From Candidatus Bathyarchaeota archaeon (GTDB taxonomy: Archaea; Thermoproteota; Bathyarchaeia; Bathyarchaeales; Bathycorpusculaceae): DNA of 64,000 bases. This document shows, one piece after another, positions 3,333-6,496 of the stretch (its first letter is position 1; each line of letters starts with the position of its first letter). The position numbers and the translations under genes are program-made. The DNA is taken from contig JAGTQZ010000009.1 of the NCBI GenBank assembly GCA_018396705.1, forward strand, positions 62,001-126,000, read 5' to 3'. The notes under the pieces were generated by a model. That model ran no database searches. It was not told where the DNA came from and worked only from the letters and a program-made list of their open reading frames with translations.

Positions 3333-3944
3333 ATGTCCGAAGAAGTTGAAGAAGTTAAAAGACTTCTCGCCTTCAAAAAAAGGATCGAGAAAAGAATTGA
3401 AAAACTTGAATCCGAGCTTAAAGAGCTTCAATCAATTCTTGAAAGCGTAAACACCGTTTTACTGGCTAAAGGATTTAAACGAGCCGAGATTGTCAAAAAA
3501 CCTCAAGTAGCGGAAATTGCTCAACCGCAAACAGCAGGAGAAGTGATTCAACAGCCTGCGGAAGCACTTGTAGGTGCATCCGAGTTTAAAGAGATCACTG
3601 CGCTAAAGACTATGGCTGGGGAACCACTTGCAAAGCTTTACGTAAGAGATAACTTTATGAAAATTGTTTTGGCGGAGGACAAGAATTTTGATGCTAACAT
3701 ACCACCATTCAACCAGTTTCTCGTCGAGAGGGTGCTAAACAAGATGCAAGAAAAAGACGGTGAACTTGCGAAAGCTGGAAAACTCAAGCCGGAAGAAATC
3801 TTTACCTACAACCTTGTGCGAGACGGCAACTTTATCCGTGAAATCCACATAAGAAACTTTGATGCAGAACGCTTAAGAGAGTTGAAATCAAGCATCAAAT
3901 GGACGTTAGAGCGAATGTATGAAAAAATGAAAAACCCCCGCTGA
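3333..3944 (+). CDS. Hypothetical coiled-coil protein
   Basis: Unrecognised 203-residue protein. Residues 1-45 are a charged heptad-like coiled coil (EEVKRLLAFKKRIEKRIEKL). A proline/glutamine-rich linker covers residues about 52-75. A globular domain from residue 80 on contains AKLYVRDNFMKIVLAEDKNF and ends in a helix (KSSIKWTLERMYEKMK). The linker between coil and globular domain suggests an oligomer with a binding head. Nothing indicates catalysis. It is monocistronic and convergent with the thioredoxin operon. Confidence 0.75.
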   Translation: MSEEVEEVKRLLAFKKRIEKRIEKLESELKELQSILESVNTVLLAKGFKRAEIVKKPQVAEIAQPQTAGEVIQQPAEALVGASEFKEITALKTMAGEPLAKLYVRDNFMKIVLAEDKNFDANIPPFNQFLVERVLNKMQEKDGELAKAGKLKPEEIFTYNLVRDGNFIREIHIRNFDAERLRELKSSIKWTLERMYEKMKNPR

Positions 3945-3962
3945 AATACTATCGTAATTTAA

Positions 3963-4103
3963 TTAAACGCCCCATGCGGAGAAAACTTTCTTTAAAAGTT
4001 CGATAACTATCTTTAGCTCTCCATGATATAAACCTGCAGCAAACATGGAAACCCCAAGAAGCAGAAGCAACGCGCCTATCACGCGGCGTTCTGAAATCTC
4101 CAT
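3963..4103 (-). CDS. Small single-pass membrane protein (46 aa)
   Basis: A short gene read from the minus strand: start ATG at 4103, stop TAA at 3963-3965. The product begins MEISERRVIGALLLLLGVSM and carries one clear transmembrane helix (residues about 8-26), followed by an amphipathic tail (ELKIVIELLKKVFSAWGV). It begins 5 bases after the thioredoxin stop codon, so it is probably the last gene of that operon. The helix with a positively charged start (ERR) is a typical small membrane anchor. Function unknown. Confidence 0.6.
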   Translation of the reverse strand: MEISERRVIGALLLLLGVSMFAAGLYHGELKIVIELLKKVFSAWGV

Positions 4104-4108
4104 AACCT

Positions 4109-4462
4109 TTACTCCAAATGCTTTTTGAGCCGGGCTTCTACTTGACCTTTGGGGACAAAGCCAACTATTCTGTCCACTTCTCTGCCAGACTTAATAACCA
4201 CAAGAGTTGGAATGCTAAAGACTTGAAAACGATCCGAAGTATCTGGGTTTTCGTCCACATTAATTTTTCCAATCAGAACCTTACCAGCATATTCTTTAGC
4301 TAGTTCTTCAACAATGGGGGCCATCATTCTGCATGGCATGCACCAGTCTGCATAGAAGTCAACTAAAACCAGTTTGTTCCGGCTTATAACTTCATTAAAA
4401 TTTGAATCTGTAAGGTGGATTACTTGTCCGCCCAAGTCTTTTTTCTCCTTAAACTCTTTCAT
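4109..4462 (-). CDS. trx: Thioredoxin
   Basis: Disulfide reductase of the thioredoxin fold, 117 residues. The active site WCMPC (Cys41, Cys44) is followed by MMAPIVEELAKEY, and the cis-proline loop reads FSIPTLVV. A short N-terminal extension (residues 1-12) precedes the fold. Its ATG overlaps the stop of a tiny upstream frame (TAATG). It lies in a minus-strand operon with an ECF-type membrane protein and an FmdE-like protein, and a small membrane protein follows. Methionine in the CxxC pair (CMPC instead of CGPC) is seen in other archaeal thioredoxins and is likely to alter redox potential. Confidence 0.93.
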   Translation of the reverse strand: MKEFKEKKDLGGQVIHLTDSNFNEVISRNKLVLVDFYADWCMPCRMMAPIVEELAKEYAGKVLIGKINVDENPDTSDRFQVFSIPTLVVIKSGREVDRIVGFVPKGQVEARLKKHLE

Positions 4463-4542
4463 TAGCTTGTGGAGTTTTTCTCCTTTATGCGCTCTAGTTC
4501 AGTGTCCTCCACAGATATAAACCCTTCGTGTTCTTTATTCAT
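4462..4542 (-). CDS. Possible 26-residue microprotein in the trx operon
   Basis: An open frame from the ATG at 4542 to the TAA at 4462-4464 encodes a 26-residue, mostly charged peptide beginning MNKEHEGFISVED. Its start overlaps the end of the DUF1893 gene by 8 bases and its stop overlaps the thioredoxin ATG by one base. Such stop-start coupling at both ends is how real operon genes are arranged, and the frame fills the only gap between its neighbours. Against it: such a short frame arises easily by chance, and no family is recognised. It could instead serve only to couple translation. Confidence 0.35.
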   Translation of the reverse strand: MNKEHEGFISVEDTELERIKEKNSTS

Positions 4543-4990
4543 GTTGGTTCATCCCCCTGCTTTGAAAAGTTTCTAAAAGAGCTTTAAGCTTTTCATAAGC
4601 CTCTTTATGGTCATCGATTTCTAGGGTGGCTTTCTCAAAAGGACAGATATCCGTTCCAGAGGCGTTTAATATTTTATCTACGAGTTTGCCACATTCAAAG
4701 TAGATGCCATGTGTTTCGAAGACTTGTTTTGCTTTTATGCTCAATGTTGATGCGTAAACAGCTTCTATTTTGGCGTAAATGCACAACAGCGCTATGGCTT
4801 TACCGACAACTTTATCCGCAACCGAGGCCCCCTCCATTTTGTCTCCGAGTTTCTCTAAAGCCTGCATAAAACCTGAAACTCCATGGTGTTTGCTTTCAAA
4901 GAGCACCTTCGAATCTTTCACAATTACAAGTGTCAAACCGTTTTTGTACAGTTTTTTCCTCGCTATTTCCAAATCTTCTCTGGTAAACAT
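4535..4990 (-). CDS. DUF1893 family protein
   Basis: A 151-residue protein matching DUF1893, a small family with a deaminase-like fold found in archaea and anaerobic bacteria. Visible features are the N-terminal KLYKNGLTLVIVKDSKVLFE, the central DKVVGKAIALLCIYAKIEAVYASTLSIKA, and a late Cys in GTDICPFEKA. The reaction is unknown. The visible cysteines and histidines might bind a metal, which would fit the NikR-linked operon, but that is inference. It starts 26 bases after the FmdE-like gene and runs into the possible microprotein and thioredoxin. Confidence 0.85.
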   Translation of the reverse strand: MFTREDLEIARKKLYKNGLTLVIVKDSKVLFESKHHGVSGFMQALEKLGDKMEGASVADKVVGKAIALLCIYAKIEAVYASTLSIKAKQVFETHGIYFECGKLVDKILNASGTDICPFEKATLEIDDHKEAYEKLKALLETFQSRGMNQHE

Positions 4991-5016
4991 ATGAATTTAA
5001 TAAGTTCAAGAAGGCT

Positions 5017-5460
5017 TTATCCCTTTTCTACCTTGAACAGCTCGTCCTCTGGTAGGGCAGCTATTTTCCAAGCGAGCTCTTCATTAAGGGTCCCGTTTAA
5101 AAGCTGTTGTTTAACATTTTCTACAACTTGCGATTTTACGTTAATCCGTAATATCTTATCTTGATTTTTAAGCCTAAAAATTGCCGTTATGTCACCTTCA
5201 GAGTTTTTTGCCTTAAGTCTCCTGTTCCCCACTGTACATTGAGTTGTTGCTTGGATGCCGTCAAGAATGCATGAAAAAGGTGTGATCAGTGGAAGCTTCA
5301 CAGAAACTTGCATATCCAGCTGTTTGTCTCCATCTATGTTCAGAGTTCTCTTCGCCAATCTTGCCATTTTTACGCCTATAACCAAGAATGGTCCAAGATG
5401 ACCATGAAGTTTTTCCGCATTTCTAATGTCTAATATTAAGGCTTCCTTTTCGTCAAACAC
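5017..5460 (-). CDS. FmdE-like protein (formylmethanofuran dehydrogenase subunit E family)
   Basis: A 147-residue protein with the FmdE signature HGHLGPF near residue 20 and a conserved central core around ILDGIQATTQCTVGN. In methanogens FmdE accompanies molybdenum or tungsten formylmethanofuran dehydrogenase. Stand-alone copies are common in other anaerobes and their job is poorly known. This copy lacks the C-terminal zinc-finger half found in longer members. Its start overlaps the ECF-type membrane gene by 8 bases. The His motif is a likely metal site. With NikR next door, a metal-related role is a reasonable inference, not shown. Confidence 0.8.
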   Translation of the reverse strand: MFDEKEALILDIRNAEKLHGHLGPFLVIGVKMARLAKRTLNIDGDKQLDMQVSVKLPLITPFSCILDGIQATTQCTVGNRRLKAKNSEGDITAIFRLKNQDKILRINVKSQVVENVKQQLLNGTLNEELAWKIAALPEDELFKVEKG

Positions 5461-5986
5461 CTTTTATCCCCCTCACGCCTGTCCTTTCAAGACTTACAAT
5501 TACTGGCACCGCGACCATAAAGCCTATTGCCCCGCCTATTAAATGCCAGATCCCCCAAAAGGTTAACGCCCATTCCAGCGACATTTTCATAAAAATGGTT
5601 CCGATAATGATTCCAGCGAAATATGCAGATATAATTGTTGCAGCACATGCTATGGCCATATTGTATGGTTTAAGACGTATTTCATGTTTACATAAAGTCA
5701 TTAAGACATCAAAGAGAATGGCCGACGCCATGAAACCTATCATCTGCGTCGCACTTGGCCTTATGGCAAGCACTATTAGAGCACCGATAACACCTATCGC
5801 CGAGGATGTTCCTATTCTGCCAGAAACCCACACGGCCAACAATAGCGTGAAATATACTGAGAAGTCGCAGAATATCGGCAGCTGGAAAAGTGTAAATCCT
5901 AACGGTCCAATGGTCAGGTTTAACACTGCCCACATGGCTGCAAAAACAGCTATTATTGCGATGTCGACTGGTTTAAATGGTTTCAT
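5453..5986 (-). CDS. ECF-transporter S-component-like membrane protein
   Basis: A 177-residue hydrophobic protein with five or six membrane helices (for example VDIAIIAVFAAMWAVLNL and GFMASAILFDVLMTLCKHEI). The N-terminal pattern, a helix followed by GPLGFTLFQLPIF, is typical of substrate-binding S components of ECF vitamin and metal transporters. No ATPase or T component lies in the window, so it would have to use a shared energising module or act alone. It heads a minus-strand operon ending in thioredoxin and is divergent from nikR, with repeats overlapping its promoter. Nickel, cobalt or a metal-dependent cofactor is the best guess for its substrate. Confidence 0.7.
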   Translation of the reverse strand: MKPFKPVDIAIIAVFAAMWAVLNLTIGPLGFTLFQLPIFCDFSVYFTLLLAVWVSGRIGTSSAIGVIGALIVLAIRPSATQMIGFMASAILFDVLMTLCKHEIRLKPYNMAIACAATIISAYFAGIIIGTIFMKMSLEWALTFWGIWHLIGGAIGFMVAVPVIVSLERTGVRGIKGV

Positions 5987-5997
5987 TCAGGTTCCTT

Positions 5998-6048
5998 GTA
6001 ATACTTTTTTCCATAAAAGTAATACTTTTTTCCATAAAAACTTTATGG
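5998..6048. promoter_or_regulatory. Candidate NikR operator: tandem plus inverted repeat between divergent genes
   Basis: Two identical 21-base units stand head to tail at 5998-6018 and 6019-6039, each starting GTAATAC and ending CCATAAAA. The second CCATAAA (6032-6038) also pairs with TTTATGG at 6042-6048 as a perfect 7-base inverted repeat with a 3-base spacer. A 21-base period equals two helix turns, as expected for repeated binding on one DNA face. The array sits between nikR and the ECF-type gene and overlaps the likely TATA elements of the minus-strand gene. NikR regulators bind spaced palindromes. That this one binds here is inferred. Confidence 0.6.
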
Positions 6049-6082: not shown

Positions 6083-6496
6083 TTGAAAACGGAGAAAATT
6101 GTTCGCGTAAGCGTAACTTTTCCGTCAGACCTGCTTAAAGACTTTGACGAAGTTATCCAAAAAATGGGCTGCAAGAACCGTTCAAAGGCAGTCCAAGATG
6201 CCGTTAGACTCTTTATTTCTGAACGTAAATGGCTCCAGGAAGAAAAAGGGCTTCAAGCTGGTGTTTTAATGGTTCTATACGACCATGAAGTTAGAGGTTT
6301 AGAGGATGCTTTGACAGATGTGCAGCACAAATACGCCAACATCATTTCTTCAACCATGCATGTTCACTTGACTGAAAGAGACTGTTTGGAAGCTATAGCT
6401 GTTAAGGGAGACGCTGCGGAAATACGAAGGTTGAGCGATGAACTTTCCTCAAAAAGGGGCGTTAAAATCCTAAAAACAATGATAGTCTCTCCTTGA
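6083..6496 (+). CDS. nikR: NikR nickel-responsive transcription regulator
   Basis: A 137-residue ribbon-helix-helix regulator. Residues 5-48 form the DNA-binding ribbon-helix-helix (RVSVTFPSDLLKDFDEVIQ). Residues 60-137 form the ACT-like nickel domain. The expected square-planar nickel ligands are present: His82, His93 and His95 (MHVHL) and Cys101 (ERDCLE). NikR represses nickel uptake genes when nickel is plentiful. The start is TTG at 6083. A TATA-like TTTAAAATA at 6050-6058 would place transcription start close to the start codon, so the message may be nearly leaderless. It is divergent from an ECF-type membrane gene across a repeat array. Confidence 0.93.
   Translation: MKTEKIVRVSVTFPSDLLKDFDEVIQKMGCKNRSKAVQDAVRLFISERKWLQEEKGLQAGVLMVLYDHEVRGLEDALTDVQHKYANIISSTMHVHLTERDCLEAIAVKGDAAEIRRLSDELSSKRGVKILKTMIVSP

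Follow-up and report, generated by a model that had tools for sequence, protein, structure and literature searches.

A NikR-boxed operon of Bathyarchaeia pairs an ECF S-component-fold protein with FmdE and probably serves nickel acquisition

Gene content and organisation of the locus

The analysed window, a 64,000-nucleotide stretch of a Candidatus Bathyarchaeota genome, carries between positions 5986 and 3963 five minus-strand genes encoding, in this order, an ECF-type membrane protein, an FmdE-like protein, a DUF1893 protein, a thioredoxin and a 46-aa protein (Table 1). An earlier note had claimed five to six genes at this site; five were confirmed in place, order and strand, while the sixth, encoding a DUF2148 protein, closes the operon only in three relatives of the same genus. 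The only DUF2148 copy in the window genome lies on another contig (L227, G000:C3:152411-152593) and not at window positions 3944-3963. Along the operon the intergenic gaps are -8, 26, 72 and 5 nt, and this spacing, together with the conserved order, makes one transcript for all five genes likely. The gene for the regulator NikR is divergent from the operon, and nadA, convergent with nikR, keeps adjoining the operon in the window's family. A possible connection with the nickel-pincer nucleotide, prompted by the neighbouring nadA, was dropped as a lead.

The association is not unique to this genome, as neighbourhood comparison recovered the same gene order in many genomes, and this recurrence indicates that the order is not due to chance. 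For the comparison, 81 neighbourhoods were fetched (denoted L), 80 from relatives and one being the window genome's own (L073). They yielded 75 ECF genes scoring above 60 bits; start trimming removed four of these, with L042 and L089 among the loci missing from the trimmed set, and the remaining neighbourhoods had lower-scoring matches or none.

Table 1 Features of the NikR-linked operon and its promoter region (window coordinates).
Feature	Position	Strand	Remarks
ECF S-component-fold membrane protein	5453..5986	-	177 aa; below every Pfam and NCBIfam cut-off; Cys40-Asp41, Asp93 and His148 conserved
FmdE-like protein, one domain	5017..5460	-	147 aa; His19, His21, Cys64, Cys75; Gly23 in place of the HGHxC Cys ligand
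DUF1893/TM1506 protein	4535..4990	-	151 aa; invariant Cys116
Thioredoxin (CMPC)	4109..4462	-	TIGR01068; conserved N-terminal extension out of frame here
46-aa single-pass membrane protein	3963..4103	-	Sub-threshold likeness to the CD1871A family, without CXXC
nikR, divergent	6083..6496	+	Sole NikR_C match in the genome; His82, His93, His95 and Cys101 align with ligand positions of solved NikR
NikR-type operator GTATTAC-N14-GTATTAC	5998..6025		Minus-strand reading; 11 bp before the first gene and below a TATA-like element
Exact 21-bp tandem duplication making up the operator	5998..6039		

NikR and its operator

The NikR protein exceeds two NCBIfam nickel-regulator models and one NikR equivalog model, its closest solved protein is a nickel responsive regulator (2bj1), and the four residues listed in Table 1 align with the metal-ligand positions of the family. 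By these sequence criteria the window NikR is genuine. NikR was found in 212 of 250 genomes of the class, so that its mere presence is uninformative.

Between nikR and the operon lies a 28-bp box with identical half-sites, placed below a TATA-like element (recognised by eye) and built in the window genome by the exact tandem duplication. Its span equals that of the E. coli NikR box, GTATGA-N16-TCATAC, as given in PMC7055735. Across the whole 1.7-Mb window genome the box occurs without mismatch in two places only, before this operon and directly before a nikM-PDGLE pair (one match for the reversed-pattern control), and the predicted NikR regulon of this genome therefore comprises two importer operons.

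The box is a general feature of the relatives. When half-sites GTRTTAC or GTAAYAC were allowed in the 28-bp layout, a box with at most one mismatch was present upstream of 60 of 70 ECF-S homologues (70 of the 71 start-trimmed genes; L054 was too short) versus 8 of 999 control upstream regions from the same loci (Fisher 2e-78), and several of the eight control matches are cbiM or fmdE genes themselves. Among the ten regions that exceed one mismatch are those of L044 and L045, in which a box precedes cbiM instead, and that of L094, where the spacer reads N13 by eye. Similarly, the 932 kb of fetched DNA contain 40 zero-mismatch boxes, and for 36 of them an ECF-S gene starts no more than 120 bp away; two others stand before cbiM. 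Boxes also precede ECF-S homologues whose neighbourhood has no visible nikR. The NikR link proposed in the earlier note is thus supported. A second exact box was found at L039 (12121), before two small divergent membrane proteins, and the FmdE loci L153, L163, L166, L168 and L170 have NikR-type boxes without nikR within 4 kb, with three boxes in L170.

The membrane protein has an ECF S-component fold

The window ECF protein scores below cut-off with every Pfam and NCBIfam model (FolT gives 16.3 bits against a cut-off of 60), and these collections apparently lack a model for the family. Low-scoring matches among 61 relatives fall mostly in S-component families, such as Trep_Strep/MptD (9/61) and FolT (7/61; E up to 0.01). 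An AlphaFold2 model built from 61 sequences is all-helical (pLDDT 96.2, pTM 0.91), and in a fold search with it ECF S chains take the ten highest Z scores (16.1 to 12.2), led by 5edl (Z 16.1; 170 residues, 3.1 A), 4hzu (14.6) and RibU 3p5n (14.5). We can therefore confidently assign the modelled protein the six-helix ECF S-component fold, which bears out its initial description as ECF-type. The residues listed in Table 1 are almost invariant in the family alignment, and AxxxA, an S-component motif of helix 1, is present in that helix in 42 of 61 rows, including the window protein, versus 64 of 244 other segments. A sub-threshold Pfam match to Tocopherol_cycl (E 0.049) was taken as chance, and a PDB sequence search with the ECF profile returned only a chance match, 2l35.

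The window genome encodes one adjacent EcfA-A-T gene set on another contig (L216, 3765-6263), and EcfT is present in 39 of 40 genomes with the ECF-S protein. Given the fold and these shared components, the protein is best described as a new S-component family operating on a shared EcfAAT module. In this it resembles the group II vitamin S-components (YkoE, RibU, ThiT, FolT), which share the six-helix fold and use an EcfAAT module encoded elsewhere in the genome, but it differs from them in having a NikR box, a metal-protein partner and no family model at cut-off. The NikMNQO/CbiMNQO systems are likewise similar in their NikR link, S-component fold and need for EcfT and EcfA. In contrast to these, the window protein lacks both a PF01891 match and the N-terminal MHIPDG start that are traits of NikM/CbiM, its partner is FmdE rather than NikN/PDGLE, and the operon has no dedicated T and A genes; as the earlier note held, this is not a standard nik nickel uptake operon. 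A relationship with NikM was rejected, as NikM (4m58, Z 9.9) falls well below the vitamin S-components in the fold search and gives no sequence match. The ECF-S family splits into two clades, and the other clade occupies the same gene order in L086, L098 and L100, which by gene order is an in-place exchange of one clade for the other.

FmdE and its metal site

FmdE is named after a methanogenesis operon. The window protein matches PF02663 at 76 bits (cut-off 22.9) and retains the core fold and the His-x-His plus Cys site of the solved family members 2GLZ, 2GVI and 3D00, but unlike these it has one domain, no zinc finger and HGHLG instead of HGHxC, and is tied to NikR and the new S-component family. 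Its alignment keeps His19, His21 and Cys64, with Cys75 in 36 of 40 rows and Gly23 at the HGHxC cysteine position in all 40. Cys75 may stand in for the missing cysteine. Glycine at one of the four known Cys/His ligand positions counts against the nickel acquisition reading. According to a structural study of 2010 (PMC2954224), FmdE family genes mostly neighbour metal-ion transporters, and crystals of a homologue held zinc and nickel at 2.6:1, in keeping with the earlier view of FmdE as a metal protein. By simple distance rules and HMMs built from the same loci, FmdE is the next gene after the S-component in 34 of 71 loci and lies within 4 kb in 43. A metallo-beta-lactamase-fold gene stands between FmdE and DUF1893 in L034 (6763-7593) and L035.

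The window genome encodes a second, longer FmdE in a region (L075, 5035-13659) where it lies next to FecCD-type ABC transporter genes, genes resembling MobB and MoeA, and a ModE-like HTH gene (all named by eye); this is likely a Mo/W counterpart. In L039 and L118 the NikR-boxed ECF-FmdE pair is followed by genes for FwdB, FmdD and a membrane protein that looks QueT-like by eye. A link to the methanofuran enzymes was set aside, as FwdB and FmdD were neighbours in a single mapped genome (L039), L118 being a named record arranged in the same way.

Importer exchange and variant neighbourhoods

A set of 80 named loci was gathered with the FmdE alignment, a sample biased towards one FmdE motif, and 28 of these have nikR within 4 kb. 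All 28 also have an importer within 4 kb, one class each: the window-type ECF-S in 13, a Znu-type ABC transporter in 12, another ECF-S family in two and a NiCoT permease in one. Importers occur in only 20 of the 52 FmdE loci without nikR (Fisher 6.5e-9). As the named loci partly repeat genomes of the neighbourhood set, the two tallies are not independent. The NiCoT at L128 matches PF03824 (333 bits) and TIGR00802, the HoxN/HupN/NixA model, above cut-off, and is surrounded by nadA, nikR, the box, DUF1893, thioredoxin and a protein resembling by eye that of window orf 3333-3944. However, a lone ECF-S homologue elsewhere in the L128 genome means that NiCoT is no simple replacement, which weakens the argument from exchange. 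Other relatives contain nickel genes within the operon itself, namely NikM with PDGLE in L044 and L045, and CooT with CooC, the nickel-insertion factors of carbon monoxide dehydrogenase (CODH), in L047, L054, L129 and L132; the latter two factors are absent from the window operon. CooC was assigned only above 60 bits, and low-score labels (L062, L063, L077, L081, L092, L093, L095) were left out. Taken together, the exchange of importers provides the strongest argument that the cargo would be a metal ion, most likely Ni2+.

The earlier note had offered two functions, the handling of a nickel-containing cofactor and redox-sensitive metal delivery. The second is possible, being compatible with the CooT/CooC neighbours in relatives and with the thioredoxin. 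The first is less likely, since simple importers of nickel or metal ions (NiCoT, NikM, Znu-type ABC) share the importer position or take it over. In a broader form of it, the cargo of the S-component would be a nickel chelate, a nickel cofactor or a nickel-binding ligand, to be processed by FmdE or a methyltransferase, with NikM taking up the free ion. This is consistent with the structural ranking, in which vitamin S-components are nearer than NikM, with the presence of NikM in the window genome, and with a SAM methyltransferase that replaces FmdE in one subclade (in 9 of 71 loci such a gene comes directly after the S-component where FmdE would otherwise stand); heme has also been reported as an ECF cargo (PMC7299338). 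The importers found in the same slot or operon argue against it, as do the candidate Cys, Asp and His residues conserved in the S-component, which suit an ion, and no recurring chelator biosynthesis gene was recognised in the neighbourhoods examined. We therefore regard import of such a compound as unlikely. The loci with the methyltransferase are L066, L071, L084, L091, L094-L097 and L101.

It is less probable still that this is a zinc or cobalt system whose NikR-family regulator answers to another metal, given the NiCoT permease in the importer slot, the aligned NikR ligand positions, and the CODH nickel-insertion factors in relatives. In favour of zinc are the ZIP and Znu-type genes near several copies, the excess of zinc over nickel in the FmdE crystals (PMC2954224), and the suggestion in PMC3087415 that a NikR homologue adjoining ZnuABC genes is zinc-responsive, which also counts against nickel as the cargo. 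An HmdB-like radical SAM gene was observed in the NikR-boxed operon of L047 (7465-8499) and L046, with CX5CX2C and 163 bits against a cut-off of 321; Hmd is up under nickel limitation in methanogens according to the same paper.

DUF1893, thioredoxin and the 46-aa protein

The DUF1893 protein (PF08973, 127 bits) has solved relatives in 1vk9 and 9e9a, and the thioredoxin passes the TIGR01068 equivalog cut-off. In the window, as in L033 and L037 of the same genus, the N-terminal extension of the latter (MNKEHEGFIS..., window 4542-4455) does not share the reading frame of the rest of the gene, near an A-rich run; in other relatives it is read through in frame. A fixed frameshift, a restart and slippage are all candidate explanations. 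The 46-aa protein scores 19.1 bits against the CD1871A NCBIfam model (cut-off 32) and has neither CXXC nor any cysteine.

Membership of these three genes in the unit can be questioned, and they may simply ride along beside a nickel pair formed by the ECF-S protein and FmdE. The ECF-FmdE pairing is far wider than the remaining genes, thioredoxin and the 46-aa protein are mostly found within the family of the window genome and, in L054 and L129, are separated from FmdE, and the 72-nt gap lies ahead of the thioredoxin gene. However, the order NikR-ECF-FmdE-DUF1893-Trx-small is retained despite the other-clade ECF protein in L086, L098 and L100, and on balance we regard this reading as less likely than not. 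It is in any case compatible with the best explanation for ECF-S and FmdE, which is nickel uptake and transfer.

Nickel demand and proposed mechanism

In anaerobic archaea the nickel enzymes CODH/ACS and NiFe hydrogenase have a central place. Genes for CdhC and for proteins of the NiFe-hydrogenase type are present in the window genome; among 26 genomes tested, NiFe hydrogenase was found in all and CdhC in 20. CbiM, in contrast, passes its cut-off in only 18 of 40 ECF-S genomes, and NicO was found in none of 23 genomes tested, namely the window genome and the other 22 of the 40. The window genome also holds the NikM-PDGLE pair.

We propose, with a probability of about 0.72, that the operon serves nickel acquisition, comprising a presumed uptake of Ni2+ and its handover, under repression by Ni-NikR. 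When nickel is scarce, NikR would leave the box and the operon would be transcribed. The S-component would capture Ni2+, possibly via Cys40, Asp41 and His148, and dock with the shared EcfAAT module. In the cytosol the ion would then be taken up by FmdE, and perhaps by DUF1893, at their His/Cys sites and passed to the maturation of nickel enzymes, through CooT/CooC for CODH and Hyp for hydrogenase. Among the weakest steps, and put forward as guesses, thioredoxin may hold the cysteines of FmdE and DUF1893 reduced and the 46-aa protein may anchor thioredoxin at the membrane. Several observations count against nickel acquisition in addition to those given above: with NikM-PDGLE already in the genome, a further nickel S-component may have another cargo, the ECF-FmdE pair precedes FwdB and FmdD in L039, a Mo/W enzyme context, and a methyltransferase takes FmdE's place in the subclade described.

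Implications

No description of a link between FmdE or DUF1893 and NikR or nickel transport was found in open-access titles and abstract openings, a scope that excludes most subscription papers. The locus represents a widespread type of NikR-controlled operon, probably a variant of ECF nickel uptake, with a plausible role for FmdE. As a tentative extension, to which we give slightly less than an even chance, both S-component clades would be a new nickel importer standing in for NikM in Bathyarchaeia, and FmdE would be a general cytosolic receiver of imported nickel, supplied under one regulator by ECF-S, NiCoT and Znu-type ABC importers; the other FmdE of the window genome, beside the FecCD-type transporter, would be its Mo/W counterpart. 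In genomes without CbiM above cut-off and without NicO, a NikR-controlled S-component family would fill the nickel-importer gap, and FmdE gains a testable role as the acceptor of an imported metal ion.
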